Of a stretch of DNA of 56,331 bases, positions 17,424-50,415 are shown one piece after another. The translations under genes and the position numbers were made by a program. The stretch spans positions 1-56,331 of IMG/VR virus record IMGVR_UViG_3300028114_001316; one strand, 5' to 3'. The stretch comes from a virus. Under the pieces are notes generated by a model. That model had not been told where the DNA came from. It did no database searches and saw only the letters and a list, made by a program, of their open reading frames with translations. The stretch's first letter is position 1. Every line of letters begins with the position of its first letter.

Positions 17424-18191
17424 TTATATTTCCGAAGTACTAGGATTTTGACTTATTAAGAATCCTCTATTATTAAAAATATATGCTGGAGTTGCGTATA
17501 GAGATACTTGTTTTGTGGTTGAATTGACAGCTGATTTTGATGCATTTACATTATAACTAAAATTACTCATAATATTATGCCCGCCAATTATAAGTTCACC
17601 GTATCCAACTGGGACTGGCCCACCTTCTCCAACAGTATTGTTGGGACCATTAAATAGATAAGAACTTGGTCCACCAGCACTACCGTCTATAGCGTCGGCT
17701 TGCTGAGCAGTAAAAGGTATATTTGGAGGAGGTTTAGATAGTAATGAACTTACTCCAGCCGCAATTAAACCGATTCCAGCAAATAAGAGTCCAGGTACAG
17801 CAAAAGCTAAGACAGGAGCAACAAAAGGTACAAAGATTGCTGCCGCAATCGAAACAGCACCCAGAAAAATTCCGGCTGCCTTTGACCAAAAATCGCTGCC
17901 AATAATCTCTGGTATAATATCTATTGTGTCTACTTTTTCTGATATGTCTAAGAAAAATTCTGAATTTTTAAAATCTTCAATAGTTTCAAATTTGGGTACT
18001 TCATTAAATAAATTTTCTTTATTAACTAGAATTTGGTATTCAAATTCTTCTTTATTTTCTAAAAGAAAATTTCTCAACTTACCTGTGTTTGCCTCTATTG
18101 CTCTAAGAGCTTCAGAAACGCTAACAACATCTAAATCCCAAAATTCTCCAACTTCTTGACCTAATTTACCATGAATATTTACTTTAATCAT
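17424..18191 (-). CDS. Tail tip assembly protein, lambda I-like
   Basis: The ATG at 18191 is preceded by GGAG at a 7-nt spacing and overlaps the upstream stop by 8 nt, giving 255 residues; a longer reading from 18233 is possible but less well placed. The N-terminus has the ubiquitin-like pattern of lambda gpI (VNIHGKLGQEVGEFWDLDV, then VSEALRAIEANTG). A hydrophobic Ala/Gly-rich segment spans about residues 100-150. The C-terminal part has NNTVGEGGPVPVGYGELIIGG, which is typical of this family. It acts in tail tip assembly together with the K- and J-like proteins encoded next to it. Confidence 0.85.
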   Translation of the reverse strand: MIKVNIHGKLGQEVGEFWDLDVVSVSEALRAIEANTGKLRNFLLENKEEFEYQILVNKENLFNEVPKFETIEDFKNSEFFLDISEKVDTIDIIPEIIGSDFWSKAAGIFLGAVSIAAAIFVPFVAPVLAFAVPGLLFAGIGLIAAGVSSLLSKPPPNIPFTAQQADAIDGSAGGPSSYLFNGPNNTVGEGGPVPVGYGELIIGGHNIMSNFSYNVNASKSAVNSTTKQVSLYATPAYIFNNRGFLISQNPSTSEI

Positions 18192-18531
18192 ATGTTTCTC
18201 CTGGATAATAAAAATTAAATTCATCCACACCAACGCAATATAATATAAAAGGTATTAAAATTGCATTAGAAGTTTGTATATCTAATTTAGAAAAATTTTT
18301 AACTTTACTTGGGTGACTATGATAGATATATTGTATTTTTTTATATTTACTTTTTGCTTTTAAAAAATCCAGTGGATCAATTTTAAAATTTTCTTTAGGC
18401 TCAAAAGATATATTTTTTACTGGGATACATAAATTTTTATTGTTATTTTCTATGACAAATCCGCATGTCTCATTGGGTAAATCTATAAAAGATTTATTTT
18501 TTATAAAATTGAGTATATCGTTGCTTATCAT
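18184..18531 (-). CDS. Tail tip JAMM-domain peptidase, lambda K N-domain-like
   Basis: The 115-residue protein has a complete MPN+/JAMM signature: Glu21 (ETCGF), His71 and His73 (YHSHPS), Ser81 and Asp84, with the spacing H-x-H-x7-S-x2-D. These residues bind zinc in active JAMM isopeptidases. Lambda gpK carries the same domain followed by an NlpC/P60 domain, which is absent here, so the protein is a single-domain K. It is coupled to both neighbours by overlaps. A role in processing a tail tip or cell wall substrate is known for the family and not shown here. Confidence 0.88.
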   Translation of the reverse strand: MISNDILNFIKNKSFIDLPNETCGFVIENNNKNLCIPVKNISFEPKENFKIDPLDFLKAKSKYKKIQYIYHSHPSKVKNFSKLDIQTSNAILIPFILYCVGVDEFNFYYPGETYD

Positions 18532-19931
18532 GACGGTTTTACCGCAGCAGGAAATCCACCGAAAGGTAAATACCCATTTAAGTAATTACCTTCATAATCT
18601 TTGGGAATACCATGCGCTTGTTCAGATATTGGATTTTCTGCTCCAGGCCTTCTAGGAAAATAAACTGGAGTTCCATTTATTCCCGTTAACCATTGAGAAT
18701 TAACTTCGTTTGCAGTATATTGTACTGCTCCAGGTTTTGCTGCATAGATTGTTGAGTTTGCCCTTTGTTGAGCAAAAATTCTACTAATTGTTTGATCGTA
18801 AGTTTCTCCATTTCTATCCGTGGGCCAAATTACAGGTTTAAATGCTGGGTTCTTTAACCATCTTAATCTGCAAGAATTTACATTTTTTGCACATGTATCT
18901 GAAATCCAATAGTTAGTGTTTGGTGGGTAATTAAACTCGTCTGCAGAATGATTATTAATACAGACAAAATAATATTTTAATTTATCTTTTTCAATAAAAA
19001 CAAAATCTCCAGAAACGTAATTAGCGGTATTTTGCCAGAGTCCAGAATTACCTAAGCCGTTAGTAATTCTGGCTGCAGCTGATACTGCAGCTGGCCCTTT
19101 AGAAAAAATACCTCCAATAAATAATTGGTCATTTTCTGTCGCTACTGGAGGTGCAGATTGTAAACCGCGAATTGTGGCGTAATTATTTTCAATACCAGCG
19201 TAACAGCCACTATGTTTTTCTGTTAGTCTTGAATTGTACTCATAGCAACAATTTTCTCCTCTGTATTGAAAGTTACATTTTTTTGCTAGTATCGTCCTAG
19301 CGGGAAGAACTATATTTTCTATGTCGAGTACAGAGGCTAATTGATACTCTACCATGACTTTATTTTCTGTAGTTTTTCTGTCTATATAATAGATTTCTTT
19401 TGGTAGCTCAACTTCATATATGCTGGATTGAGCATTAAATATGTTTGTTCCTCCTTGAAAATTTTCACCTTTTAAATATTTAACAAAAGTTTTTATTCTA
19501 GTGAACTTCGCCCCAACTATATCACCTAAAGATTCAATTTGCATTCTAATGTATTTATAAAAAGAGTTTAAAGATTTATCTGGACTAAAGTTACCCATTG
19601 CAAGTCTAGGTGTTGGAAGAGTGCCTGCGCTTGTATAATCAAATCCATCTGCTACTATTGGAAATGGATAATAAAAATTATTTTTCCATTTTATTGCAGC
19701 GGATGGGTTATTACTAATGTTGTATAAGAAATATTCATTGTATAGCCTTAATACTCCTCCATTCAACGGCTGCTCTCCCGTATTATTAAAGTTTTTCAAA
19801 TTTGGCGATATTTCTGAAAGATCTATCTCATAGAAACTTATTGGTGTCGATGGTGTTAAAGAAGTTAGGTTTGAATTTATATCTTTGGAGCCACTTACGA
19901 TTAAATTGTATATCTCAGAAGATGTGCTCAT
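18528..19931 (-). CDS. Minor tail tip protein, lambda L-like, with inserted carbohydrate-binding-like module
   Basis: The 467-residue protein has the L-family core: ARTILAKKCNFQYRGENCCY at residues 211-230, paired cysteines Cys219, Cys228/229, Cys347 and Cys354, and a C-terminal YLPFGGFPA. In lambda gpL four such cysteines hold a [4Fe-4S] cluster. Between them, at about 299-343, is an inserted segment starting LWQNTANYVSGDFVFIEK and ending NTNYWI, which resembles the aromatic pattern of CBM5/12 chitin-binding-type modules. A second extra stretch (about 361-440) precedes the end. It overlaps the K-like gene by ATGA. The iron-sulfur role is inferred from the family. Confidence 0.82.
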   Translation of the reverse strand: MSTSSEIYNLIVSGSKDINSNLTSLTPSTPISFYEIDLSEISPNLKNFNNTGEQPLNGGVLRLYNEYFLYNISNNPSAAIKWKNNFYYPFPIVADGFDYTSAGTLPTPRLAMGNFSPDKSLNSFYKYIRMQIESLGDIVGAKFTRIKTFVKYLKGENFQGGTNIFNAQSSIYEVELPKEIYYIDRKTTENKVMVEYQLASVLDIENIVLPARTILAKKCNFQYRGENCCYEYNSRLTEKHSGCYAGIENNYATIRGLQSAPPVATENDQLFIGGIFSKGPAAVSAAARITNGLGNSGLWQNTANYVSGDFVFIEKDKLKYYFVCINNHSADEFNYPPNTNYWISDTCAKNVNSCRLRWLKNPAFKPVIWPTDRNGETYDQTISRIFAQQRANSTIYAAKPGAVQYTANEVNSQWLTGINGTPVYFPRRPGAENPISEQAHGIPKDYEGNYLNGYLPFGGFPAAVKPS

Positions 19932-19936
19932 ATTTA

Positions 19937-20479
19937 TTAAACAGGTACCTCTAGAAGGGTAGTTTGAATAATGTGCATATCATACGATATATATGAAGCC
20001 GTCCAATTTATAGAAATATATCTTGTGTCAATTTTATCATTTGATTTTTTATATATGGTTGGAGGATTATAAATAAAAGACTCTACACCCGCTCTTTCTT
20101 TTAAAAAATGCAAGATTGAAACTGTTTCATTTTCAGATCTGCCTTCAAAGTTTAAAGTAAATTTTGCAAGAGTTGAGTTTATTCCGTCAGAAATTCTTTG
20201 TTGATAACCATTCCCAAATTGAGAAACTGTAATTTGAGGACTAATTTCTATTGATGCATTATATGATGGTTTCCACCAAAAATTAGGGACTAAAATTCCG
20301 TTCAAAGAAATATATCCCTCCCAATGAACTTGTAGATTCGCAAGGGTTATTGGGTTATTAGAAACATTAGAATCTTTAATTGAATAATAGAAACGATCGT
20401 CACTACCTTTCACAATATCATACTTTTTATAAGTAGTTAAATTGCTCCAGTAGGAAACTGTATCGTGAATACTTGCCAT
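19937..20479 (-). CDS. Minor tail tip protein, lambda M-like, with N-terminal carbohydrate-binding-like module
   Basis: The 180-residue protein opens the tip operon. Residues 10-60 (YWSNLTTYKKYDIVKGSDD, followed by aromatic residues and HWEGY) resemble a CBM5/12-type module. From about residue 75 the sequence fits lambda gpM (SPQITVSQFGNGYQQRISDG, then AKFTLNFEGRSENE). The gene starts after an AAAGG-containing leader and is the first gene downstream of the minus-strand GTGTAA box at 20501-20506. gpM caps the tape measure at the tail tip in lambda. Confidence 0.82.
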   Translation of the reverse strand: MASIHDTVSYWSNLTTYKKYDIVKGSDDRFYYSIKDSNVSNNPITLANLQVHWEGYISLNGILVPNFWWKPSYNASIEISPQITVSQFGNGYQQRISDGINSTLAKFTLNFEGRSENETVSILHFLKERAGVESFIYNPPTIYKKSNDKIDTRYISINWTASYISYDMHIIQTTLLEVPV

Positions 20480-38734: not shown

Positions 38735-39062
38735 ATCTTATAAATTCTATCAAACTTTTGGGCTTTTTGCAAATCTTTTTATCATCTTGGACTTTATTTT
38801 CTTCTAGTTTTACTGTTTCTGTATTTAAATTTAAATTAAAACTTTCATATTCTTTTAAAATAAAAGCTTTTCCCTCTGGCTTAAGAAACCAAGCTAATGA
38901 AGGTGGTGGACTTCCTAATTCTTTAAGATTATCCCAAAAATCAAAAGAATTAAACCTTTTAACTAATCTTTGAGCGATTTTAATCTCTCTTGGCCAATTA
39001 ATATTTCCTTTAATAAATTTCTTAACGATTAATTGACAAAGTTTATGATTTGAGATTTTCAA
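38718..39062 (-). CDS. Unknown small protein upstream of the recombinase
   Basis: The 114-residue protein overlaps the dehydratase-intein gene by 20 nt and the recombinase gene by 17 nt. The N-terminal half is helical and basic (MKISNHKLCQLIVKKFIKGN; QRLVKRFNSFDFWDNLKELG) with a PPPSLAWFL segment; the rest is charged. Coupling to the recombinase suggests a mediator or loader, but there is no motif to prove it. Confidence 0.45.
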   Translation of the reverse strand: MKISNHKLCQLIVKKFIKGNINWPREIKIAQRLVKRFNSFDFWDNLKELGSPPPSLAWFLKPEGKAFILKEYESFNLNLNTETVKLEENKVQDDKKICKKPKSLIEFIRYGKKI

Positions 39063-41226
39063 TATCCCAGTTTACCATCTTTTCTATTAATTTGTCAAAT
39101 GAAATTTTTGGTTGCCAGTTTAGCTCTTTTCTAGCTTTATCCGAATTACCAAGAAGAAGCTCCACTTCTGCTGGTCTATAAAATTTAGGATTAATTTGAA
39201 TTAATACCTTTTTATCCTCAGAGACATATACTTCATGTTCTTTTTCTCCAATCCATTCGCCATTAATTCCAGCATAAGCAAAAGCTTTTTCTGCAAACTC
39301 TTTAATTGTATGCGTCTCATTCGATGAAAAAACATATTCTTTCGCATTTCCATCGTAATTACTATTATATTTATCTTGATTTAACATCATCCAAACACCT
39401 TCTATAAAATCCTCAGCATAACTCCAATCTCTTTTCGCTTCAATATTGCCTAATTCTAATGGACTAAAGGGTTCATTATTTTTAATTGCATGGTAAATTC
39501 TTGCTACATTTTTAGTGATTTTGCGAGTTACGAATTCCTCGCCTCTTCTTGGACTATTGTGGACCCAAGAAAATCCAATTCCAGCAGAAAATGTTCCCGA
39601 CTTTGTTTCAAGATCAAATAACCATCCAGAATATTGTAATTTTGATATTTTAGTTACTTCATTTTGACTTTTTATTAAATGTTTTCCTTTATTAGATATA
39701 TTTTTATTATTTGAATTTATATTAATTTTAAAATAAAGCCTATCTCCTCTTTCTTCTGGACATAATGTAAATCTAAATTTTAGTAAACTCAATAAATAGC
39801 ATAAGCCAGAAGCAAGCGTATAGGATGAGGTCGTAAAACCTTGGAATTCAGTTTTTTGATTACTAGCTTTTAATCCATCTCCATCGTTATATGCTTTTAA
39901 ATAAATTTGAATTGTTTTTAGGTTTGAATTTAAAATTTTAATTGGAATTCTTTTATCGCCCGTTTCAGTATAAAGATTTTTTCTTAATAGTTTTAAATAA
40001 TTTGAATCTCCGCATAAATTTATATTTTTTATATCTTTTCTATTCGTGAATCCGCTTTGGCTGTAATATTCAGATGTATATCCAGAGGATAGTTTGCTCC
40101 ACAAAAACTTTACTCTTTCGCATAAATCATTATCTTTATTAGTAAATTTGCCACGACCATCTTCGCTAATGTATCCCTCCGCAGTCATTAATCCTAAAAG
40201 TTCAGCCTCTTCATCTAAAACAATAGATATGTTATTTTTTTCTGGTAGTGGTTTAAGTTCTAGTTCATTATTGACAGATAAATCTTTGGTTTTAATTTGC
40301 ATTCCGCCTTTTATAAAAGATATATGATCTGCCGTTGCTTCGTAAAATCCAGCGCGACACATTATTCTATGTATATCTTTATCATTATTTTCATCATTCC
40401 ATGTGGCCGTTCTTGTTAAAATTTCGCTCCACGTTCCGCCATCCCATATTAAATAATTACAATTATCCGTGGAGATATATTTTTTACCTTTTAAATGGTT
40501 TCTTCTATGAGGAACAATCTCGCTAATTGGTAGAATATTTATCAATCCAGAATCTTTATATTTTATAATAATTGGGGTTTTTTCAGTCAAACACTCGTGA
40601 TTAAAAAGATACCCTTGTACGGCATATAATCCATAAGACTCTCTGTATACCTTAACTAATTGTCTAGAAGCAGCTTTGCTCGCTCCATATGGACTCCTTG
40701 GCTTTAATGGATGATTCTCGTCTTGAGGAGTATATTGTACATTTCCAAATTCTTCGCTTGAACCAGCTTGATAAAGTCTACAAGATGGCTTGTAAAGCCT
40801 TATTGCTTCTAAAATATCAAGCACAGCGGTAGAATTAGTTTGCCAAGTTTGACGAGCAAAATCCCAGCTGCTCGCAACAAAACTTTGAGCAGCAAAGTTA
40901 ATAAAATAATCTGGTTGCAATTTTTCTACAGTTCTTGATATAGCATGAGAATCGGTTAAATCAAAATTAATAAGATGAAATCTATCAGACTTGATATGCT
41001 TAATATTTTCATGATTATATACGCTTAATCTTCTTACTCCACCAAAAATAAGATAATCTGTATTTTTAAGTAAAAAATCAACCATATGACTTCCATCCTG
41101 ACCAGTTACGCCAGTTATTACTACTGTTTTTCTTCCATTAATTATTCTACTAGCATCTTCAATATTGAGGATATTAGAAGTGTCTATCTTTTTACCATAA
41201 TAGGTTTCTTGAAAATTCAAACTCAT
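39043..41226 (-). CDS. gmd: GDP-mannose 4,6-dehydratase interrupted by an intein
   Basis: The 727-residue reading is an extein of 381 residues with an intein at residues 212-557. The N-extein has TVVITGVTGQDGSHMVDFLL (NAD(P)-binding), INFAAQSFVASSWD, QAGSSEEFG and SPYGASKAAS with the catalytic Tyr-x3-Lys. The host protein breaks in the conserved GYLFNHE/SPRRGEEFVTRKI, which reads perfectly after removal of the intein. Gmd converts GDP-mannose to GDP-4-keto-6-deoxymannose, the precursor of GDP-fucose and GDP-rhamnose. No GDP-fucose synthase is obvious nearby. The start is ATG, 8 nt after TATAAT. Confidence 0.95.
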   Translation of the reverse strand: MSLNFQETYYGKKIDTSNILNIEDASRIINGRKTVVITGVTGQDGSHMVDFLLKNTDYLIFGGVRRLSVYNHENIKHIKSDRFHLINFDLTDSHAISRTVEKLQPDYFINFAAQSFVASSWDFARQTWQTNSTAVLDILEAIRLYKPSCRLYQAGSSEEFGNVQYTPQDENHPLKPRSPYGASKAASRQLVKVYRESYGLYAVQGYLFNHECLTEKTPIIIKYKDSGLINILPISEIVPHRRNHLKGKKYISTDNCNYLIWDGGTWSEILTRTATWNDENNDKDIHRIMCRAGFYEATADHISFIKGGMQIKTKDLSVNNELELKPLPEKNNISIVLDEEAELLGLMTAEGYISEDGRGKFTNKDNDLCERVKFLWSKLSSGYTSEYYSQSGFTNRKDIKNINLCGDSNYLKLLRKNLYTETGDKRIPIKILNSNLKTIQIYLKAYNDGDGLKASNQKTEFQGFTTSSYTLASGLCYLLSLLKFRFTLCPEERGDRLYFKININSNNKNISNKGKHLIKSQNEVTKISKLQYSGWLFDLETKSGTFSAGIGFSWVHNSPRRGEEFVTRKITKNVARIYHAIKNNEPFSPLELGNIEAKRDWSYAEDFIEGVWMMLNQDKYNSNYDGNAKEYVFSSNETHTIKEFAEKAFAYAGINGEWIGEKEHEVYVSEDKKVLIQINPKFYRPAEVELLLGNSDKARKELNWQPKISFDKLIEKMVNWDIENLKS
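39556..40593 (-). other. Intein with LAGLIDADG homing endonuclease inside gmd
   Basis: The insert is 346 residues. It starts with Cys1 (CLTEKTPIII) and ends SWVHN with the penultimate His and terminal Asn, followed by Ser+1 of the extein. Block B is EATADH with Thr87 and His90. Two dodecapeptide-type motifs, ELLGLMTAEG (131-140) and YLKAYNDGDG (231-240), keep acidic residues, so the endonuclease may be active. Block F reads GWLFDLETKSGTFSAG. All residues needed for protein splicing are present. Confidence 0.93.
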
Positions 41227-41234
41227 ATTGTTAT

Positions 41235-41240
41235 ATTATA
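41235..41240 (-). promoter_or_regulatory. -10 box TATAAT 8 nt before the gmd ATG
   Basis: A perfect TATAAT (41240-41235) ends 8 nt before the ATG at 41226. TTGATT is present 15 nt upstream of it, a short spacer, so the -35 is weak. Confidence 0.45.
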
Positions 41241-42210
41241 ACAAATTTTTATAAAAATCAATTGTTTGTTTTAGTCCGTGTTTAAAAGATGTGATTGGAT
41301 ACCAATTTAATTCTTTGTTTATTTTGTTATTATCTATTGCATATCTAAAATCATGTCCTTTACGATCTTCTACAAAAGACATATGATCTTGAGGATTAAC
41401 ATTTAATACTTCACAAATATCATTAATAATCTCTAGATTTGTTTTTTCGCAATCTCCACCTATATTATATGTTTCGCCAATTTTACCATTATTTAGTATA
41501 GACCATACTGCTTCACAATGATCATCAACAAATATCCAATCTCTTATATTTTTTCCATTCCCATAAACAGGTATTTTTTTATTATTTAATATAGAATTGA
41601 TAACAACTGGTATGAATTTTTCATTATGTTGATTTGGTCCATAGTTGTTTGAGCAATTAGAAATTGTGATTAAAATTTTAAAAGTATGATGATAAGCTCT
41701 AACTAGCATATCGCTCGAAGCTTTTGATGCAGAGTATGGAGAATTTGGTGCATATGGCGTTTTTTCTGTGAATTTACCTTCTTCACCTAAACTGCCATAA
41801 ACTTCATCAGTAGAAATATGATGAAATCTAATCTCTGGAAAATCTCTAATAATCTCTAATAGGTTGAATGTCCCGAATATATTTGATTGAATGAATCGCC
41901 TTGGGTCAGATATTGAATTATCTACATGAGATTCTGCGGCAAAATGGACTATGTGGGTTATATTATTTTCTTTTAATATGTTTTTAAATTTTTTAATTTC
42001 TATAGAGTTATTTAACATCTCCAACCAAAAATCCTCAAATTTATATTTTATATTATTTTGAAAAGATTTTGTATTATTTAAGTTTGCTGCTCCATGATAT
42101 TTACTTTTTGTATCTATGTTTATGATGGAATGGACTTCTTTTTTATTAATTATATACTTAATAAAATTAGAGCCAATAAAACCAAGGCCACCTGTCACTA
42201 TTATATTCAT
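41236..42210 (-). CDS. rfbB: dTDP-glucose 4,6-dehydratase (RmlB/RfbB)
   Basis: The 324-residue protein is a short-chain dehydrogenase of the RmlB type: MNIIVTGGLGFIGSNFIKYI, HFAAESHVDNSISDPRRFIQ, HHISTDEVYGSLG with the catalytic Asp-Glu, and SPYSASKASSDMLV with Tyr-x3-Lys. NNYGPNQHNEKFIPVVI and GKNIRDWIFVDDH follow. It converts dTDP-glucose to dTDP-4-keto-6-deoxyglucose. It overlaps the isomerase gene by ATGA. The preceding enzyme RmlA is not in this window, so the host may supply dTDP-glucose. Confidence 0.94.
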   Translation of the reverse strand: MNIIVTGGLGFIGSNFIKYIINKKEVHSIINIDTKSKYHGAANLNNTKSFQNNIKYKFEDFWLEMLNNSIEIKKFKNILKENNITHIVHFAAESHVDNSISDPRRFIQSNIFGTFNLLEIIRDFPEIRFHHISTDEVYGSLGEEGKFTEKTPYAPNSPYSASKASSDMLVRAYHHTFKILITISNCSNNYGPNQHNEKFIPVVINSILNNKKIPVYGNGKNIRDWIFVDDHCEAVWSILNNGKIGETYNIGGDCEKTNLEIINDICEVLNVNPQDHMSFVEDRKGHDFRYAIDNNKINKELNWYPITSFKHGLKQTIDFYKNLL

Positions 42211-42593
42211 TTAATTAAATTTAAAAATTCTTTTTTATTTAAAATATAATCTTTTTCATCATATATTGTTGAGCAAATAGAAATCATTATATCGCTGCCA
42301 GTTAAAAATTTTTGTGAATCCCATACCATTTGTGGTATATGAACAAATTCTCCTTGTTTAATTAAGGTTTTTTCTTTTTTATTTCCATAATCTAGATTTA
42401 CTTGTATTTTACCTTTAACACATATTAAAAATTGTTGAGTTTTGAAATGCGCATGATTTCCTCTAACTGTATTTTTTGGTACGTCTCTTACTATAAAAAC
42501 TCTCTTGGGGCTAAACGGTAATCTTTTAAAGTCAATAGGCAGCAGATACCCTCCTCTTTCGTCTGTAAAAGTATTATAAATCTCTATATTCAT
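42207..42593 (-). CDS. fdtA: dTDP-4-keto-6-deoxyglucose 3,4-ketoisomerase (FdtA/WxcM cupin)
   Basis: The 128-residue cupin protein has VRGNHAHFKTQQFLICVKGK (about residues 44-63) and the closing strand GEFVHIPQMVW, both typical of the FdtA/QdtA and WxcM C-terminal family. This enzyme moves the keto group from C4 to C3 of the dTDP sugar. FdtA and QdtA differ in C4 configuration of the product and cannot be told apart here. It lies between the aminotransferase and RmlB genes, in the order expected for the pathway. Confidence 0.88.
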   Translation of the reverse strand: MNIEIYNTFTDERGGYLLPIDFKRLPFSPKRVFIVRDVPKNTVRGNHAHFKTQQFLICVKGKIQVNLDYGNKKEKTLIKQGEFVHIPQMVWDSQKFLTGSDIMISICSTIYDEKDYILNKKEFLNLIK

Positions 42594-43497
42594 TGACCTT
42601 TTTAATTATATAATTTAAATTAGTTTTTGTCAACTTATAATGAAAGGGTATGCTTACTGTTTTTTTAGAGATTCTTTCTGAATTAGGGCATTTTTGATCA
42701 TTTTTTGAATATATTGGATTTAAATTTTGAGCTTCATAATGAAGTCCACAAGTGATTTCATTTTTTTTCATCGCTTCTATGAAATTTTTATTATTATTTA
42801 CTTCTATTCTATAAAGATGATCGCTTGTATTATTCAAATTAAATTTTTTATTGTAAAAATCTCTAATATTTTTTAATTTACTTTTTGTTAAATCAAATTT
42901 ATCAAAATTTCTGAGCACAATTTCTGCTTGTATTGAATTCATATACATTTTATATCCTGGAAATTTAACTTGTCTTTCCCAATTATTTTCTGCATAAGAC
43001 ATCCCATTCATTACAGCTTCTTTTAGCCAGCGAATTTTATCATAATCGTCAGAAACAATCATGCCTCCATCAATTCCTCCTATTGGTTTAGTTGGATAAA
43101 AACTAAAAAACATTACATCATTAGGATTTGCTTCATTTTTGAATTGATTTTTTTCTACTTTTTGTGCGGAATCAATTATTTTATAGTCTTTAAATTCGTG
43201 TAGTATATAGGAATTTCCTATCCATTCTGTATTATCAGTAAATTTTATAGAATTTCCAGATGTTATTAATGCATTTAATACTACTGGAGGTATCATACTT
43301 GGAACTTTTACTTGTATTTTTTTATTTAAAAATAATAAGAATATAGCATTTGTGGCACTATTTATCGAACATGCATATTTTGCACCTACATATTTGGCGA
43401 TAGAATTTTCTAATTCTACGACATTTTTATCATGTAGATGATTTTTAAATTTAGAAAAATCTATTTTATAGTTATTTAAATTAAATAATTTGATCAT
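42574..43497 (-). CDS. dTDP-3-keto-sugar aminotransferase, DegT/DnrJ/EryC1 family (FdtB-like)
   Basis: The ATG at 43497 gives 307 residues; the upstream TTG at 43512 is possible but would overlap the preceding frame more. The fold-type I aminotransferase motifs are present: ELENSIAKYVGAKYACSINS (PLP phosphate site), YKIIDSAQK with Asp binding the PLP ring, and FFSFYPTKPIGGIDGGMIV, whose Lys is the PLP Schiff base residue. It is shorter than the usual 360-370 residues in loops. With RmlB and the isomerase it would make dTDP-Fuc3N or dTDP-Qui3N. The matching acetyltransferase is not seen. Confidence 0.87.
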   Translation of the reverse strand: MIKLFNLNNYKIDFSKFKNHLHDKNVVELENSIAKYVGAKYACSINSATNAIFLLFLNKKIQVKVPSMIPPVVLNALITSGNSIKFTDNTEWIGNSYILHEFKDYKIIDSAQKVEKNQFKNEANPNDVMFFSFYPTKPIGGIDGGMIVSDDYDKIRWLKEAVMNGMSYAENNWERQVKFPGYKMYMNSIQAEIVLRNFDKFDLTKSKLKNIRDFYNKKFNLNNTSDHLYRIEVNNNKNFIEAMKKNEITCGLHYEAQNLNPIYSKNDQKCPNSERISKKTVSIPFHYKLTKTNLNYIIKKVNEYRDL

Positions 43498-43710
43498 ATG
43501 TATAATATTCAAAGTTTTTATTTTTAATTAATAAAGAGTCTATTTGTTCTTTTGAGCTAATCCAATCGTCCTTTACTCCTAAATCGCAATATATATATCT
43601 ATCTTCATTTATTAAAAGATTCACATCTTTTCTTTCACCTTTTGGATGCCAGAATCCAGTCATTGGAAAATATTATTTCCTAGTCTTCCAGCGTAATTTA
43701 CAGAAATCAT
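43481..43710 (-). pseudogene. Remnant of a GT11-type glycosyltransferase gene plus a 60-residue frame
   Basis: An ATG at 43710, in an ATGA overlap with the methyltransferase stop, reads MISVNYAGRLGNNIFQ and then TGA at 43662-43660. GRLGNN(I/L)FQ is the hallmark N-terminus of GT11 fucosyltransferases. The next ATG (43663), again in ATGA overlap, opens a 60-residue frame that I do not recognise (TGFWHPKGERKDVNLLINED) and that runs 17 nt into the aminotransferase gene. The simplest reading is a glycosyltransferase gene reduced by deletion and frameshift. An intact GT11 gene lies at 48905-49714. Confidence 0.6.
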
Positions 43711-44177
43711 TTTATCGAAAATTTAGCCATCGTACCAACTTGATCTATTAAATTTAAAAAATTTAAAGCTGGTTTATATTCTTCTCTATTAAAATCATGT
43801 ATAAATACTATAGTATCTTGTCTGCCAATTTTTGAACATATTGAAGCGCAGAATATTCTGGCTCTTCCATCTATCAAAATTATATCGTATGGTCCATATG
43901 GAATTGGATAGTCTATATAATCTTTAAATTCTTGATATGTTCCACAATCTCCTCCTTCAGTATATGGTAAATTAGGTGTTCTTAATACGATTTTAGCATT
44001 AGATGGTAGATCATTTTTAATTTTAAAAAACCAATTCTCTTGATGTTCTATAGATAAAATTTCTTTGCATCTTTGAGCTATTTCAAATGTTGACTCTCCA
44101 GATCCATACTCTAGAACCTTATGAGTTTTATTTATATGATTTAAGAAAAAGGAAGATTCTTGATTTGTACTAAACAT
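43707..44177 (-). CDS. Class I SAM-dependent methyltransferase-like protein
   Basis: The 156-residue protein has KVLEYGSGESTFEIAQRCKE (motif I, SAM-binding Gly-x-Gly) near residues 20-39, ILSIEHQENWF (motif II acidic residue), and PYDIILIDGRARIFCASICS near 96-115. The small size and IDGRAR segment resemble sugar-cluster methyltransferases of unknown acceptor. It overlaps the upstream glycosyltransferase gene by 8 nt. Confidence 0.7.
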   Translation of the reverse strand: MFSTNQESSFFLNHINKTHKVLEYGSGESTFEIAQRCKEILSIEHQENWFFKIKNDLPSNAKIVLRTPNLPYTEGGDCGTYQEFKDYIDYPIPYGPYDIILIDGRARIFCASICSKIGRQDTIVFIHDFNREEYKPALNFLNLIDQVGTMAKFSIK

Positions 44178-45054
44178 ATTCTTTTAATTGTTTGTTAAAT
44201 TTTAATTTTAAATTTTCTAAATTTTTTAAAATTGCTTCTGGATGAGTTCCTTCGAATTTAGAAGTCCCACAAAAACCTCTTACATTCGGTTTAAATTCAT
44301 GTACTCCTTCGTATTTTTCTTCAATATTTTTTCTTTGATTTTCATCGCCAGTAACCCAAGGTAAATATACTTGATTAAAATAATCATCTATACAATTTTC
44401 TTTACTAATATCACTTTTATAATAACCTACTTTATTAAAAACTTGCTTTGGGAATACATAAGAATAATGATACATTTGAATGCCAAAATTATTCCATAAC
44501 GTTTCTGAATCTATATGCATCCAATTTATATTAGCATCATCTGGATATCTTATTGTTGGTGGTCTATGTTTTTCCCATGAGCAACCTGGAGTTACTCTAA
44601 ATATTCTTAAAAAATTATCTTTACCCAATTCGAATCCATTTAGATAATGATCAAATCCGCCATAAAAAGAACAACTTCTAACTGCCATTCTAGCAGGTTT
44701 ATATTCTTCTAAAATTTTAATTATTTTTTTAAGATCCTCGGTTTTATAAACTTCATCTGAATCTAAGTTAAAAAGATAATCTATATCTGGTCTTAAATTC
44801 TTCATATAAGCTTGACATTGTTCGTCTTTTTCTGAGTATTGACCATGAGTTATTGTAATTTTTTTATCTGGATCTGGAAATGTATTTAAAATATGATTAG
44901 TTTCATCTTGTGAAGTTGTTTTGCCCATCCTTTGCCAATATGAAACTGGTCCTTCTGCAATTAAAATTTGTTCAGCAAATGGATAAACTTGCTCTAAACA
45001 TTCTTTTAGAACGTAATCACTTTCAAAAACTATCATGCCAAATGCTAATTTCAT
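44170..45054 (-). CDS. Glycosyltransferase, GT-A fold (GT2-like)
   Basis: The 294-residue protein begins KLAFGMIVFESDYVLKECLE with an N-terminal nucleotide-binding pattern, followed by AEQILIAEGP. IDYLFNLDSDEVYKTEDLKK (about 90-109) has the DxD metal motif. It continues with RSCSFYGGFDHYLNGFELGK, RVTPGCSWEKHRPPTIRY and a His-rich HYSYVFPKQV. This matches an uncharacterised GT2-like family found in surface polysaccharide clusters. It is linked to both neighbours by overlaps. Donor and acceptor are unknown. Confidence 0.72.
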   Translation of the reverse strand: MKLAFGMIVFESDYVLKECLEQVYPFAEQILIAEGPVSYWQRMGKTTSQDETNHILNTFPDPDKKITITHGQYSEKDEQCQAYMKNLRPDIDYLFNLDSDEVYKTEDLKKIIKILEEYKPARMAVRSCSFYGGFDHYLNGFELGKDNFLRIFRVTPGCSWEKHRPPTIRYPDDANINWMHIDSETLWNNFGIQMYHYSYVFPKQVFNKVGYYKSDISKENCIDDYFNQVYLPWVTGDENQRKNIEEKYEGVHEFKPNVRGFCGTSKFEGTHPEAILKNLENLKLKFNKQLKEYV

Positions 45055-45668
45055 TTTTTTCTTTCTAGTAAAATTGAACTACCAAGATCTTCTGGCATAT
45101 CAATTTTGTATATTAAATTAAATTCTTTAGTTATATTCTCAAAATCCTTAAAGTTTATGATTGATCTAGATGTTTCTAGGTTTCCATATGTGCCATATTT
45201 TACAGTATTGGTTGGTTCATTTGAGAAAATTTGTCTATGTATTATAAAATATCTATCAATATTATTTAATATTTTAATTAATATTTCTACTGGAGTATCC
45301 ATTTCAGATAAGAAGCTATTACAAACAATTAAATCATTGTTTTTCAAAAAAGAAAAGTCTGAGTTATATGCATCAAAATACCCATATTTTAACTGTGGAT
45401 TTACTGTTTTTGCTACATTTTCTATTATATGCTCCAAATCAAATCCTGTATATTCATATTTATTTTGGTATACTCTACCTAATTCTGCTGCACCACATCC
45501 TAAGTCTAGCAAAGTTTTAATATGTATTTTTTGAACTAATGTATCTAGATATTTAAAATGACCAGAATGCTCTAATCTAGCCCATCCATTTAATCCTAAT
45601 GCTCCTCTTATCATTTCAGAGCAGAGTATATCCTTATTGTACCATGCGGATTTCATTTCTTTATTCAT
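45051..45668 (-). CDS. Class I SAM-dependent methyltransferase
   Basis: The ATG at 45668 overlaps the GT8 stop as ATGA and gives 205 residues; an ATG at 45689 would overlap by 25 nt. TLLDLGCGAAELGRVYQNKY (about residues 52-71) is motif I, YTGFDLEHII motif II, and LIVCNSFLSEMDTPVEIL motif IV/V. It probably methylates a sugar or nucleotide sugar in this cluster. No acceptor motif can be read. Confidence 0.75.
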   Translation of the reverse strand: MNKEMKSAWYNKDILCSEMIRGALGLNGWARLEHSGHFKYLDTLVQKIHIKTLLDLGCGAAELGRVYQNKYEYTGFDLEHIIENVAKTVNPQLKYGYFDAYNSDFSFLKNNDLIVCNSFLSEMDTPVEILIKILNNIDRYFIIHRQIFSNEPTNTVKYGTYGNLETSRSIINFKDFENITKEFNLIYKIDMPEDLGSSILLERKK

Positions 45669-46606
45669 TTTGAGTTTGGATATGGGCAAATATGTTCTTC
45701 TATTATACTATATTTATTTCTTATTTCAAGTATTTTATCATAGTAATCTTGATAAATATCATGCACATATTTATTTAAAGTTTCTGGATTCCATTCGCCT
45801 TTATATGCAGAATACCATTTCTCATTCTTTATATTAAAATGCGAAAAATGATTGAATAAAATTCTTTGTTTTGCATTATTAAATTTATAAATTACGTCTC
45901 GTTCATTTAAAAATGTATAATTCTCAAAATTCCATGGAGCTCCATGAGCAATATTACCTTCAACTACATGAATATTGTGTTTTCCAAAAAGCGGCTCAAA
46001 AAGCTCCAAGTATTTCTGGTCTCCACAAGTTCCATGTGATTGAGCAAATTGATTAGCGCAATCAAACATTAAATCTCTCCAGAATCTAGATATTAATATT
46101 CCTAAATTTGATTTTTTAAAATAAATAATACCAACATTATAAATTCCAACTCTCGATTCGTATTTATAAAATGCCGATTCATTTTTATGAGTTACTATAG
46201 CGCAATCTTTTTCTTTTATTTCTTCTTTTAAAGTATTCAAATTTTCATAAAAGATTAAATCAGAGTCGCAATATAAAACTGATTCTTTACTATATTTTTC
46301 TAATATATAATTTGTAAAATATGGAGTTAAGGAATAACAATAATACGCATGATCACCTAAATCATACCAATCTCCTAATTCTGATTTTATATTTCTATTT
46401 TTTATTTTTAATAAATTTTGATCTTCTTTCTCTAAATCTTGTAATGAATAAGCTTTAATTTCTTTTATTTTATTGCAAATGTCAAAAGTCTTATCGTCAA
46501 GGCATAATACATGAATTTCTAATTCAGGATCATGTTTTAATAATGATTCTATCATTACTAAGCCTTTATCTAGATAGTTGTAATCAAATAGTGTGCAAAT
46601 TGTCAT
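45665..46606 (-). CDS. Glycosyltransferase, GT8-like
   Basis: The 313-residue protein starts MTICTLFDYNYLDKGLVMIE and LEIHVLCLDDKTFDICNKI, the typical GT8 nucleotide-binding region. The metal site is ESVLYCDSDLIFYENLNTLK (about 110-129). NVGIIYFKKSNLG, CGDQKYLELFEPLF and ILFNHFSHF follow, as in galactosyl- or glucosyltransferases of LPS core and glycogenin-like enzymes. It overlaps the reductase gene by 23 nt. Confidence 0.78.
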   Translation of the reverse strand: MTICTLFDYNYLDKGLVMIESLLKHDPELEIHVLCLDDKTFDICNKIKEIKAYSLQDLEKEDQNLLKIKNRNIKSELGDWYDLGDHAYYCYSLTPYFTNYILEKYSKESVLYCDSDLIFYENLNTLKEEIKEKDCAIVTHKNESAFYKYESRVGIYNVGIIYFKKSNLGILISRFWRDLMFDCANQFAQSHGTCGDQKYLELFEPLFGKHNIHVVEGNIAHGAPWNFENYTFLNERDVIYKFNNAKQRILFNHFSHFNIKNEKWYSAYKGEWNPETLNKYVHDIYQDYYDKILEIRNKYSIIEEHICPYPNSK

Positions 46607-47459
46607 AGTTTTTAATAGAGTTTTCCATGCTATAATATATATTAGGTAGCTCTAAATTTAGTTTTTTAATTTTTTTTGTAGAAAGAGCGCAATTACTTCT
46701 TAAAACTTTAAAATTCATTTGATTTTGATCTAAAAATTTCCAATTCTTATTTTGCAAATTATACTTTTTGAGTATTTCTACGATTTCTTTGGCCGTAGCA
46801 TAACCTTGATTAGTAACATTATAAATTCCATATTCTGGTTTATTTTGCAAATTTATAAATTTATAAATAAATTCATTAAGATCATCAATATTAGTTAAAC
46901 TGTTTTTATAGCTGATTAAATTATCATATTTTAATATTTTGTCTATATAGTTACGTTCAGAAGATTTATATGAAAATGGCATCCTTATTCTAAAAATATA
47001 TGAGTTACTATTTTTTAATGATAGTTCGCATGCATGTTTAGTTTTACTATAAAAGCTACTATTTTGATTGTAAATTCCAAAATTTGGTTCGTCTTCTTCT
47101 GTATAATCTTTTTCATATCCACTATAAACACATCCGCTACTAATATGAATAATTGGTATGTCCCAGAGAGAAGCTATTTCTGTTAAAATAATAGGTAATT
47201 TTACATTATATTTCCAACAAGTTTCTTTATCGTTTTCACATCCTTCTACGTTTGGTCTTCCAGTATATCCAGCGCAGTTTATAATATAGTCTATTTTGAT
47301 GGATTGATTTTGTTGGAGGTACTTATTTAAAGTATTAAAATCTAAATAATTTAAATCTTTTTTAGAATAAATATTTGATTTTATGTCTGATTTTGAAATA
47401 AGATAGTCCGAGAGACTTGATCCAATATAACCTTTACCCAGTAATAAAATATTTTTCAT
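46584..47459 (-). CDS. NAD(P)-dependent sugar epimerase/reductase (RmlD-like SDR)
   Basis: The 291-residue protein starts KNILLLGKGYIGSSLSDYLI with the Gly-x2-Gly-x2-Gly dinucleotide fold. DYIINCAGYTGRPNVEGCEN, PIIHISSGCVYSGYEKDYTE and SFYSKTKHACELSL follow, with a Tyr-x3-Lys catalytic pair. RmlD-type reductases have this short layout and the YTEEDEPNFGIYN segment. Candidate roles are reduction of a 4-keto-6-deoxy sugar from RmlB or Gmd, the step otherwise missing here. The exact substrate is not readable. Confidence 0.75.
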   Translation of the reverse strand: MKNILLLGKGYIGSSLSDYLISKSDIKSNIYSKKDLNYLDFNTLNKYLQQNQSIKIDYIINCAGYTGRPNVEGCENDKETCWKYNVKLPIILTEIASLWDIPIIHISSGCVYSGYEKDYTEEDEPNFGIYNQNSSFYSKTKHACELSLKNSNSYIFRIRMPFSYKSSERNYIDKILKYDNLISYKNSLTNIDDLNEFIYKFINLQNKPEYGIYNVTNQGYATAKEIVEILKKYNLQNKNWKFLDQNQMNFKVLRSNCALSTKKIKKLNLELPNIYYSMENSIKNYDNLHTI

Positions 47460-48294
47460 ATATATAGTCTTCTATTGATTTGAATTCCAAGCATTTATTA
47501 AAATTATATTTAACTGCTTCTATTCTAGAATTGTAATCATTTTGTGATAATTTATCAATAATATTATTAAATTCTTCTAAAGAAGAAAATTGAAGTATTC
47601 CATTTTTATCAAAAATACAATTTATATTTCTTGCGCCAAGATATATTGGAATTGTACCAGTAGCAAAACAGTTTAATATTTTTTCTGTAAAATATAGGTC
47701 ATCTATAAAATTTTCAATAACAATTGAAAACATATAATCTTTTAATGTCCTATAAATAGGTATCCAACCTTGATCAATATTTCCTCCTGTAGCAAAAAAT
47801 TTATCAATTTTATTGTTATTTTTTATTGATTCCATTATTTTTAATCTTGTTAAATGTAGATTGCACATTTGTTTGTTTGAGGATACCATTGAGCATAATT
47901 TATTTTTATCATGAATAGCGATTTTTCCTTCTCCATGTGGCAAATCATCTCTACCTTCTATCCATATTCCACCTCCTGGAATCCATTTACAATTTTCATA
48001 TTTATTTAATAAATCTGAACTATGAGTAAAAACTTTATTAAATTTAGGTATTATTTGTTCTATTGATTGGTAGCAGATTGACTCTACTCCTTGGGATTCA
48101 AAAACCCATCCATATGATAATTCTTTTTCGCTTCTAATTTTATCTATATCAAACATCTTCATATGAGAATAAAAAGTTGGAGAATTAAGATTATTTAAAG
48201 ATCTATCCCATTCTATATGCTTAGAATCTCTGGCCGCTACTGAATATTTATCGTGAGCAAAGTGTCCATCTATAAGATTAAAAATTTTTTTCAT
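47434..48294 (-). CDS. Glycosyltransferase, GT10 alpha-1,3-fucosyltransferase type
   Basis: The C-terminal half of this 286-residue protein has the GT10 donor motif: FSIVIENFIDDLYFTEKILN followed by CFATGTIPIYLGARNINCIF (about 189-228), which corresponds to the fucosyltransferase signature for GDP-fucose binding. FATGGNIDQGWIPIYRTLKD precedes it. The N-terminal acceptor domain is less conserved, as usual. With gmd in the cluster, GDP-fucose or a related GDP sugar is a likely donor. It ends in a 26-nt overlap with the reductase gene. Confidence 0.85.
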   Translation of the reverse strand: MKKIFNLIDGHFAHDKYSVAARDSKHIEWDRSLNNLNSPTFYSHMKMFDIDKIRSEKELSYGWVFESQGVESICYQSIEQIIPKFNKVFTHSSDLLNKYENCKWIPGGGIWIEGRDDLPHGEGKIAIHDKNKLCSMVSSNKQMCNLHLTRLKIMESIKNNNKIDKFFATGGNIDQGWIPIYRTLKDYMFSIVIENFIDDLYFTEKILNCFATGTIPIYLGARNINCIFDKNGILQFSSLEEFNNIIDKLSQNDYNSRIEAVKYNFNKCLEFKSIEDYIYEKYFITG

Positions 48295-48903
48295 TTATTT
48301 TTTAAAAAATGCATCACCCCAAGTTTCTCCAGCCCAACAAACTTCTTCTAGTTCGAACCCAAACTCTTTTAAGAAATCGCATAAATCTTTAATATGCGGG
48401 CATCCTTCATAAACTTCTGCTCGATTCACTTCTGAGACTATATAATTTATATTATTTAATGTATTTTTAGCGCCTTTGAATACTTCTAGTTCGTAACCTT
48501 GAACATCAATATTTATAAAATTATAATTATTTTTATTAAATTCAAAATCATCTAATTTCATCATCTCTACTTCTTCTTTGTCTGTAAAATGAATCCATGG
48601 ATATTGTTGTAAATGAATTTTAGGATTAAGTATTGAACTAGATTGGCCTTGATTATTTTTTTCTACATTCATTTGTACTTTTTTATTCTCATTTCCTAGA
48701 GCTTTATTTATAACTAAGGCTTCATCTTTTACTTTATTTTTTAATATTTCAAATGAAGATTTCATTGGCTCGAAGTAAATAATATTTTGAATATTATGCT
48801 TTTTGTATGACTCATGTTCTTCGCCATGATGACCACCAATATGCATTACTCCATTGATTTTGCAATTATATTTATTAATTAAATTTTCTAGAGATAAAAG
48901 CAT
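48295..48903 (-). CDS. FkbM family methyltransferase
   Basis: The 202-residue protein has INGVMHIGGHHGEEHESYKK (motif I), NIIYFEPMKSSFEILKNK, FINIDVQGYELEVFKGAKNT and YIVSEVNRAEVYEG. These are the FkbM domain landmarks. FkbM enzymes methylate hydroxyl groups of sugars or polyketides. Capping a glycan by O-methylation would fit the neighbourhood. It starts at ATG directly after the GT11 gene with one base between. Confidence 0.87.
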   Translation of the reverse strand: MLLSLENLINKYNCKINGVMHIGGHHGEEHESYKKHNIQNIIYFEPMKSSFEILKNKVKDEALVINKALGNENKKVQMNVEKNNQGQSSSILNPKIHLQQYPWIHFTDKEEVEMMKLDDFEFNKNNYNFINIDVQGYELEVFKGAKNTLNNINYIVSEVNRAEVYEGCPHIKDLCDFLKEFGFELEEVCWAGETWGDAFFKK

Positions 48904-48904
48904 A

Positions 48905-49714
48905 TTAGACGATACTCCAATTTTGTGGAATTAGATCATCTATATTCCATTGACCATTATAAGCTGGTCCCATCCAATTTGATGGTGCAACTACTTTGTT
49001 GTTATTTTTATTAAGCCAAGCAGCCCACCAAGCAAAACTACTGTTTGCAAGAATATTGTTTTGGCAGATGGACATTAAATACATATCTTCAAATGCGTGA
49101 TTATTTTCTATATAAATAAAATTAATATTATTAAATTGTTGGAAAATTTCTTTGGCTTTAGGCATTGTATCAGAGAATACTAGGTAATTCTCTGAATTGA
49201 TTATATCAAAAGCTTTTGCGTAATAGTCTTTATTCATTACTGGATGATATTGTTGTCTATGAGCATAATCACCACATCTTAAATGAACAGAAGAAAATTT
49301 ACTAAAATCTATATTATGTTTATTATATACAGAGTTTTTTATCTCATTTTTAAAAGTTAATTGTCTTTTTAAGTCATTTTCAAAGATATTAAAATATTTA
49401 TAAGATTGAAAATATCCTTCTAAATTAGTAAAGTCTGGTATTGTAAATATATTTTTATTGTAAAAATTATAAGACCAATTGGCGGTATATTTTATTTGCT
49501 TCAAATCTTCTTCTGTAAGAATATTCGCTGATATATTATCAAAACAATTTAAAAAATAGTGCTGTATTCTAAATGTACCTTCATCAAAATGTTCTTCTGT
49601 TTTTGGAATTTTAACTTCATACCCATTTAATTTACCAATAGAATACAAGGTAGCATATTGAAAAAGTTGATTTCCAATTGCGCCATATTTACCTAATTGA
49701 GAAAATGTTATCAT
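48905..49714 (-). CDS. Glycosyltransferase, GT11 alpha-1,2-fucosyltransferase type
   Basis: The 269-residue protein shows the family N-terminus SQLGKYGAIGNQLFQYATLY and the donor-binding motif SVHLRCGDYAHRQQYHPVMN (about 157-176, HxRxGDY). YLVFSDTMPKAKEIF and NNILANSSFAWWAAWLN follow. These are the three GT11 motifs in order. Alpha-1,2-fucosylation is the usual activity. It overlaps the GT25 gene by ATGA. A broken relative lies at 43660-43710. Confidence 0.92.
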   Translation of the reverse strand: MITFSQLGKYGAIGNQLFQYATLYSIGKLNGYEVKIPKTEEHFDEGTFRIQHYFLNCFDNISANILTEEDLKQIKYTANWSYNFYNKNIFTIPDFTNLEGYFQSYKYFNIFENDLKRQLTFKNEIKNSVYNKHNIDFSKFSSVHLRCGDYAHRQQYHPVMNKDYYAKAFDIINSENYLVFSDTMPKAKEIFQQFNNINFIYIENNHAFEDMYLMSICQNNILANSSFAWWAAWLNKNNNKVVAPSNWMGPAYNGQWNIDDLIPQNWSIV

Positions 49715-50415
49715 GATGGTTTTAATTTATTAAATTCAGTAACGAAATGCTTATCTAATCTTGTGATTACTAGATTATTATCAGAAAAACATTCTTTTTG
49801 TGTTGCTAATATTTCATTTGTAGAAAATGATTTTCCTCTTGGTAAAATGTGTCGCATTAGCCATCCATCTACGCTTTCATTTCTTTGGAGCCAAGGTATA
49901 ATCTCTTGTCCTGCTGGAATATTTGAGCTAATAATTTCAGCTGCTTCTCTGCTATATGCTTGAGCATGAGCACATAGCGCTACATTAACTTTTAATAAAT
50001 TTTCACTAACTCTTTCTAGTGGAATGTCATTTGGTCTGGAAATATCAAATCCATATCCAACATGCATACCTAGATAAAATATATCCCAAGAATTTTGTTT
50101 TTTAAGATCTTCTAAAGATAATGATAATTGATTATTTACATCATTAAGAAATTCAACATCATCCTCAAAAATTAAAGCATTATTTAAGTTACGCTCTTTA
50201 ATTAAATTGATTGCTGCTCTATGAGACGCAAAACATCCAGCTGAACGAATATTTACATTAGGATGTGATCCTTCGAATTTTATGGCATCAAATCTTTCTA
50301 CTCTTTTATGGATACCTAGTTTTTCGAATTGTTCTAGACACATTTTCCACTTATCCGTACGATAAGCTAAATTAATGCAATAAATTTCTTCAAAAAAATC
50401 AAAAGGATTACTCAT
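49711..50415 (-). CDS. Glycosyltransferase, GT25 type
   Basis: The 234-residue protein starts with FFEEIYCINLAYRTDKWKMC, the GT25 hallmark (CINLxxRxDKW). GCFASHRAAINLIKERNLNN and ALIFEDDVEFLNDV with the DDV metal motif follow, then WDIFYLGMHVGYG. GT25 enzymes are known as LPS beta-galactosyltransferases and collagen galactosyltransferases. It is coupled to both neighbours through ATGA overlaps. Confidence 0.88.
   Translation of the reverse strand: MSNPFDFFEEIYCINLAYRTDKWKMCLEQFEKLGIHKRVERFDAIKFEGSHPNVNIRSAGCFASHRAAINLIKERNLNNALIFEDDVEFLNDVNNQLSLSLEDLKKQNSWDIFYLGMHVGYGFDISRPNDIPLERVSENLLKVNVALCAHAQAYSREAAEIISSNIPAGQEIIPWLQRNESVDGWLMRHILPRGKSFSTNEILATQKECFSDNNLVITRLDKHFVTEFNKLKPS

Follow-up and report, generated by a model that had tools for sequence, protein, structure and literature searches.

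CBM5/12-like modules in the distal tail protein and the iron-sulfur hub protein of a lambda-like phage tail tip

Introduction

Do two tail tip proteins of a lambda-like phage carry sugar-binding modules, and what would such modules do at the tip? The question is raised by an IMG/VR virus record (IMGVR_UViG_3300028114_001316), analysed here over its full length of 56,331 bases and referred to below as the window. The original prediction, made from the letters of the DNA, held that the products of genes M and L each contain a roughly 45-residue segment with the aromatic spacing of CBM5/12 modules. It further suggested that the two modules contact a polysaccharide layer in a phage that has a large glycan cluster. 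We followed up these claims with profile comparison, structure prediction, surveys of relatives and a search of the literature.

Results

M and L belong to a lambda-like tail tip

Gene M (19937..20479, minus strand) encodes a gpM-like distal tail (Dit) protein of 180 residues with a PF05939 match at residues 67-146 (E 1.2e-19). Gene L (18528..19931, minus strand) encodes a gpL-like hub protein of 467 residues with four Fe-S cysteines and a PF05100 match at residues 66-232 (E 1.9e-30). Both Pfam and PHROGs identified M as a homologue of gpM and L as a homologue of gpL, and K-, I- and J-like genes come after them on the same strand. When the AlphaFold2 models were compared with solved structures, the tail-tube fold of M matched lambda gpM (8iyk) with Z 12.9 and an rmsd of 1.9 Å over 109 residues. 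Lambda gpL matched the L model with Z 15.8 over 208 residues, yet at an rmsd of 10.2 Å. We conclude that the tail tip is lambda-like, with M as its distal-tail ring protein and L as its Fe-S hub protein. The K-like protein (18184-18531, minus strand; 115 aa) was found to have JAB-type matches only, the peptidase half being absent from its Pfam scan.

Both proteins contain a module that lambda lacks

Lambda gpM (109 aa) can be aligned only from residue 66 of M onward, which leaves about 65 extra residues at the N-terminus of M. Within these we delimited a CBM5/12-fold module at residues 8-58 (20306..20458, minus strand), supported by AlphaFold2, structure matches and hhalign. In L, a module of the same fold was delimited at residues 296-345 (18897..19046, minus strand), inserted before the third Fe-S cysteine and supported by AlphaFold2, a structure match and hhalign. 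These boundaries agree with the segments first proposed, residues 10-60 of M and 299-343 of L. The proposed sites, the N-terminal end of M and the stretch of L that separates its Fe-S cysteine pairs, are likewise borne out.

The first cysteine pair of L, C219 and C228 (19248..19277, minus strand), has a spacing of 9 and the second, C347 and C354 (18870..18893, minus strand), a spacing of 7; all four residues are invariant in 77 of 77 aligned L sequences. They correspond to C173, C182, C205 and C212 of lambda gpL, given as its Fe-S cysteines in passages of PMC10721106, and the spacings of 9 and 7 are kept; the cluster itself is predicted here. The insert spans residues 229-346, between C228 and C347. 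It begins with a linker, 'APPVAT..D' (residues 229-295; 19047..19247, minus strand), which precedes the CBM-like module, and it ends with a conserved W-x-x-D-x-C that runs directly into the third Fe-S cysteine. The distance from the second to the third cysteine is 119 in L and 23 in lambda gpL (232 aa). Because gpM starts to align at residue 66 and gpL has this short cysteine gap, lambda has neither module, as had been claimed. The same passages of PMC10721106 place the Fe-S domain of lambda gpL at the outer surface and describe the role of its cluster as uncharacterised.

No convincing third module was found with both module profiles among the 339 stop-to-stop ORFs of at least 40 aa in the window. 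After M and L, which sat in the training sets, the next-best ORF reached E 0.1 with the M profile and 1.0 with the L profile.

The modules resemble each other and CBM5/12 modules

We compared the module profiles using hhalign, with 19 segments taken from the remainder of the same two alignments as controls. The M and L modules matched each other with a probability of 90% (E 1.7e-6, score 28.5), and with another alignment the probability was 57% (E 1.1e-4); the highest control score in this comparison was 13.0. Against four CBM5/12 PDB sequences the M module scored 24.5 and the L module 25.6, with a control maximum of 12.1.

Matches of single sequences were sparse. The Pfam CBM_5_12 model was matched at E<=1 by 19 of 80 diverse M rows (best E 3.4e-4) and 3 of 77 diverse L rows (best E 4.1e-3). 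The M protein of a distant relative, L118, matched it at residues 9-45 (E 3.2e-4), with 21.1 bits, under the Pfam cut-off of 26.2. The window M and L themselves had no CBM match in Pfam or PHROGs, PF02839 being absent from the window, and the L-module profile did not find the window M (E 3.1). The CBM5/12 signal therefore lies in profiles and not in single sequences. Cross-detection with one profile was likewise weak, the M-module profile finding 15 of 106 L proteins at E<0.01 and the L-module profile 5 of 129 M proteins. Among PDB sequences, the best match of the L-module profile was a chitin oligosaccharide deacetylase (E 0.12). The M-module profile listed henipavirus glycoproteins first (E 0.1-0.2), which we took as chance, and a chitin deacetylase and chitinase A at 0.64-0.65.

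The CBM-like fold expected by the original prediction was recovered by AlphaFold2. The M model has a pLDDT of 90-94 in the blocks covering residues 11-60 (model mean 87.3) and the L model 91-97 in those covering 291-350 (model mean 76.8); the L model is poor past residue 360 and around the first cysteine pair (pLDDT 53-82). In lists of 50 solved structures, the rows that span either module are CBMs of chitinases or chitin deacetylases, at 1.6-1.9 Å. Residues 3-54 of M matched the chitinase MmChi60 (9fbp; Z 6.5, 1.9 Å over 49 residues, 18% identity) and residues 7-56 a Chromobacterium violaceum chitinase (4tx8; Z 6.0, 1.6 Å over 46 residues, 22% identity). Residues 293-346 of L matched residues 384-432 of a Vibrio cholerae chitin deacetylase (4nz4; Z 4.5, 1.7 Å over 48 residues). 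Foldseek matched L to a V. campbellii deacetylase (8yh4) with a probability of 0.97, giving no residue range. Z values of 4.5-6.5 are modest, and the tool warns that a Z below 8 can reflect a common arrangement. Taken together with the sequence evidence, these matches are convincing support for a predicted CBM5/12-like fold in both modules, and we classed the modules by this fold and not as members of CBM5/12.

The L module also has a weak sequence match to PDB 7b5h_AE (All3316, from the baseplate of an Anabaena contractile injection system), and L has a weak Foldseek match to it (48 columns). These matches hint that a contractile injection system has a module of a similar kind.

The conserved aromatic residues point to the fold

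According to passages of PMC8449059, two conserved aromatic residues of CBM5 lie in the hydrophobic core and others bind sugar, the chitin-binding residues being a consecutive Y-W or W-W pair. In the alignments, W11, Y17 and W53 of M and, in L, W299 and Y305 fall on conserved CBM positions, and W342 of L aligns with W53 of M. These positions are strongly conserved. In L, position 299 is W or Y in 77/77 rows, with Y305 and W342 each in 76/77; in M, W11 is found in 57/80 (otherwise Y, H or F), Y17 in 73/80 and W53 in 79/80. By analogy with CBM5, we infer that these aromatics are core residues. The W/Y motif from which the modules were first recognised is thus a sign of the fold, its aromatics being conserved, and is no evidence of a sugar-stacking face.

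Trp687 is a chitin-binding residue of ChiA1. Judged by sequence, the chitin-binding Trp has no counterpart in the window M, and the exposed Trp, or Tyr-Trp or Trp-Trp pair, that binds chitin in CBM5/12 has no clear equivalent there. In L, F333 is the sole residue near the canonical binding place, and it is present in 18 of 77 rows, which are the close relatives of L. Using a crude sequence pattern, we searched the stretch from the second strand up to the last Trp for a further Trp and found one in 7 of 76 M rows and in none of the 76 L rows parsed. Any W, F or Y occurred in that stretch in 38 of 76 rows of each protein by the same crude pattern. Some aromatic residue is thus available in about half of the rows, and a different binding face is therefore possible. 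As far as alignment can tell, M has no evident counterpart of the canonical sugar-stacking aromatics, and that in L is doubtful.

The two modules are kept together in one clade

Relatives were found by similarity to the window proteins or to their relatives, taking the best 80 of 88, 360, at least 459 and at least 556. For the non-redundant sets, M below 100 aa and L below 290 aa were dropped (for L, 23 of 187 distinct ORFs, comprising fragments and short lambda-like L) and the remainder was clustered at 75% and 80%. Non-redundant counts and trees consequently under-represent lambda-like L.

In the close set, the module is present in 26 of 26 aligned M rows and 24 of 24 aligned L rows, counting the window or a near-copy; the 25 other M are 55-98% and the 23 other L 59-96% identical to the window proteins. 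The modules also persist at greater distance, as in L118 and L119, which are about one third identical to the window and retain both. Y32 and G55 are invariant in the diverse M alignment (80 rows, window counted). In the diverse L alignment (77 rows, window counted), P336 and D345 are invariant along with the four cysteines, and Y305, G308, Y321, P337 and W342 are nearly so. Among close relatives, median identity to the window was 60.8% in the M module vs 58.6% in the core, and 62.0% in the L module vs 62.8% in the core. Over the diverse set, the M module is less conserved than the core (34.8 vs 40.5%) and the L module more (41.7 vs 36.9%).

Among the matches listed, 177 distinct M-L pairs had a complete Fe-S region, of which 134 have both modules, 39 neither, 4 the L module only and none the M module only. 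After clustering of M at 70%, there were 66 with both, 26 with neither, one with the L module only and none with the M module only. Two of the four L-only pairs have ready explanations, the M of L324 being cut by the contig end and L264, a short lambda-like L, being probably a false match; the other two are L269 and L270.

We constructed quick trees of L with the loop removed. In a tree of all 106 L, the 84 that bear the module form one clade (SH-aLRT 100), with L269 in another. A tree of 98 rows, from which nine of the 106 L were excluded for having no four-cysteine pattern, placed the same 84 on one side of a branch with SH-aLRT 99. The L that bear the module belong to a single old clade of uncultured phages, and no loss of the module was seen among the 84 non-redundant members of this clade. 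This suggests that the module pair was probably gained once, early, and then kept. As co-occurrence follows this one clade, it is not independent evidence of contact between M and L.

In 12 cultured-phage records, drawn from the best matches of 572 records for the window L and 1434 for the L of L118, no module was detected at E<0.05 (L read in 12, M in 9). In 11 of the 12, L is short and lambda-like, the exception being Synechococcus phage S-CBS4. A first scan of bacterial genomes found no relative. A second gave five L relatives, three of which encode both modules (two contigs of one uncultured-bacterium bin and one Proteobacteria MAG).

Other sugar-binding-type folds occupy the same Fe-S loop

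We then considered the loop between the cysteine pairs across L proteins. Of the 106 non-redundant L (minimum length 290 aa), 97 show the four-cysteine pattern, with a gap of 23 in 7 and of at least 65 in 90. The pattern is greedy, giving a spacing of 10 for adjacent cysteines, and its gap of 474 for L247 is probably a misassignment. Since these L were collected through their similarity to the window, the frequencies of loop domains are not general.

Some relatives, which belong to a subclade close to the window, have an F5/8C-like domain between the linker and the CBM-like module. The best PF00754 match is that of L192, at 27.4 bits vs a cut-off of 28.2, and L114 matches as well. The F5/8C label was set by hand for six rows, of which L114, L191 and L192 have a Pfam E below 0.05, L197 has 0.08, L193 has no match and L169 was unscanned, all scores shown being below the cut-off. 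Another gpL lineage is represented by L269, the only L seen above the CBM_5_12 cut-off (38 bits vs 26.2, in two stretches), which apparently has three such modules in tandem. A third lineage has bulb-type lectin (B_lectin) matches in L proteins of lambda-type phages. In L227, L235, L238 and L274 the cysteines place these matches between the Fe-S cysteine pairs; in L243 and L263 the same place is read from a position behind the core domain. The B_lectin score is above the cut-off in L235, L243 and L263, just below it in L227 and L238, and weak in L274. The cultured cyanophage S-CBS4 (L375, 1156-2553) also encodes an L with a long insert between the cysteine pairs, which makes it a possible laboratory model for the Fe-S loop.

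Extra domains were also observed elsewhere in L. L114, L116 and L117 (about 780 aa) have, beside their F5/8C-like and CBM-like domains, a further insert of about 200 residues past the fourth Fe-S cysteine; in L114, the one scanned, this insert has no Pfam match and is jelly-roll-like by eye. L228, L240 and L245 combine a short lambda-like gap of 23 with a late start, and their extra domain seems to be N-terminal. L228 (3312-4307) has an Ig-like (He_PIG) match in its N-terminal extension, and L272 (3315-4946) has a weak CBM_5_12 match at its residues 7-42, in an N-terminal extension.

The window encodes a glycan cluster

A Pfam scan of seven ORFs bore out the large glycan cluster (41236-51323, minus strand). 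Epimerase, DegT aminotransferase, RmlD, GT11 and GT17 matches were above the Pfam cut-off and GT2 and GT8 just below, and a GDP-mannose dehydratase-type gene is counted with the cluster. The cluster is real, and we found nothing linking it to the tail tip. The GDP-mannose dehydratase-like protein (39043-41226, minus strand; 727 aa) has its Pfam match in two stretches with a LAGLIDADG-like match at 341-379; it looks like a carrier of an intein or similar insert.

Discussion

The phage has two modules of CBM5/12-like fold that lambda lacks, one in each protein, as the original prediction supposed. Its further step, to contact with a polysaccharide, sits less firmly, the binding aromatics being without a clear counterpart in M and represented near the canonical place in L by F333 alone.

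The most likely function, to which we give a probability of about 0.55, is that the modules bind a host surface polysaccharide, probably other than chitin, in a weak and multivalent way that guides the tip before gpJ acts. In this reading, M would have gained a CBM5/12-fold module at its N-terminus and L another in the loop between the cysteine pairs of a presumed [4Fe-4S] cluster. By homology with lambda, a tail would carry six M and three L modules, up to nine around the tip. They would project outward, a point on which single-chain models are silent, and bind capsule or LPS weakly but at many sites, holding and guiding the tip until gpJ meets its receptor. Contact of the tip modules with a glycan is likely. 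We favour sugar binding because the same loop holds other known or likely sugar-binding folds and because published hub proteins offer parallels. Against an adhesion role, module and core are conserved to about the same degree in close relatives, which is not what a diversifying host-range part would show.

The main competitor, which we consider possible though distinctly less probable, is that the tip has taken over the CBM5/12 fold for protein-protein contact or for stability, so that the M and L modules pack together, on the hub or on a fibre, and bind no sugar. The retention of the modules throughout the clade of 84 non-redundant L and their core-like conservation also fit such a structural part. 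So do the absence of any M module without an L module among the 177 pairs listed, the W-x-x-D-x-C that leads straight to the third Fe-S cysteine, and the canonical binding aromatics, which are not evident in M. A fixed packing role is, however, hard to fit with the unrelated folds, known or thought to bind sugar, that occupy the same loop in other phages. Moreover, L269 and L270 have L modules and no M module, and the co-occurrence tracks a single clade.

Two further explanations appear improbable, and to a similar degree. One is attachment to chitin or chito-oligosaccharides, which would tether the phage to chitin particles or chitin-coated hosts. The solved folds matched are indeed chitin-binding modules of chitinases and chitin deacetylases, but a common fold says nothing on the ligand, and the chitin-binding residues lack a clear counterpart, our crude pattern showing the Trp in few M rows and in no L row, though some aromatic in about half of the rows of each. 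The other is that the modules are degenerate relics, once sugar-binding, that kept their core and lost their function. Retained fold aromatics beside non-evident binding aromatics are what a relic would show, yet the module persists in relatives about 30-40% identical to the window, and one would expect a relic to disappear or to diverge more quickly. A chance aromatic spacing with no real module, for which the missing Pfam CBM matches of the window proteins might speak, was rejected on the 19 hhalign controls (at most 13.0 and 12.1) and is very unlikely given the AlphaFold2 models, fold matches and conservation.

The position of the L module may also bear on the Fe-S cluster. We tentatively propose that the gpL-type cluster is a clamp: an outward loop, shut at its base by the two cysteine pairs, could be a general socket into which phages plug sugar-binding domains. 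The domains plugged in would be single or tandem CBM5/12-like modules, F5/8C-like and bulb-lectin domains, and oligosaccharide-binding domains, the clade of the window adding a matching module on the distal ring. Such a clamp, if true, would be one answer to what the gpL cluster is for, and the sugar-binding-type domains in the Fe-S loop of several lineages suggest closing the base of an adhesion loop as a testable role. The M and L modules are small enough to be expressed and tested for glycan binding, and they could serve as short markers for the likely host-contact parts of many uncultured phages.

Comparison with known systems

The window proteins belong to the same families as lambda gpM and gpL, with the same M-L order and four cysteines spaced 9 and 7; lambda has neither module, and its second and third cysteines are 23 apart vs 119. 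With CBM5/12 (PF02839) the modules have in common the predicted fold, the fold aromatics and a length of about 45-50 residues, but the window proteins miss the Pfam model and the canonical binding aromatics are not evident.

The closest parallels are the hub g13 of RcGTA and the hub of roseophage R4C (vBDshSR4C_014). As described in passages of PMC10276861 and PMC7296036, these are also gpL-like Fe-S hubs, whose four cysteines sit in two ion-binding segments separated by an oligosaccharide-binding domain. The window L likewise has an insert between its two Fe-S cysteine pairs; the hub structures 6tba_7A and 8gtc_P aligned with it over residues 15-208 only, outside the insert. The RcGTA/R4C insert resembles the insertion domain of the LKA1 tailspike, whereas that of the window matches CBM5/12 and is accompanied by a related N-terminal copy in the distal tail protein. 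Additional sugar-binding sites are proposed for the distal tail protein of RcGTA/R4C, and the RcGTA authors propose that many such sites let the particle work through the capsule (PMC10276861, PMC7296036). Passages of PMC11445458 give the distal tail protein of JBD30 two oligosaccharide-binding domains.

In siphophages of Gram-positive hosts, evolved Dits form a distal tail ring with CBMs that add to host binding, according to passages of PMC7291167 and PMC8540738. Their CBMs are of other types, sit in galectin loops, in an arm or between the belt and galectin domains, and occur in only part of some phage groups. The M of the window differs in having a 50-residue, putatively sugar-binding module of CBM5/12 fold at the N-terminus of a lambda-type gpM. 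The Alishewanella phage protein LSH1 gp24 has a galactose-binding-like fold, and the LSH1 hub, unlike that of the window, has no Fe-S cysteines. Beyond the RcGTA/R4C, JBD30, evolved Dit and LSH1 parallels, our literature searches found no earlier description of such modules in gpL or gpM, and the passages of PMC10013915 consulted contained nothing relevant.

It is thus already known that distal tail and hub proteins can carry sugar-binding domains, even inside the Fe-S loop. To judge from the literature searches, three things are new: both M and L have the CBM5/12-like type, the two modules occur as a pair in an old uncultured clade, and several folds of sugar-binding type recur in a single loop bounded by the Fe-S site.
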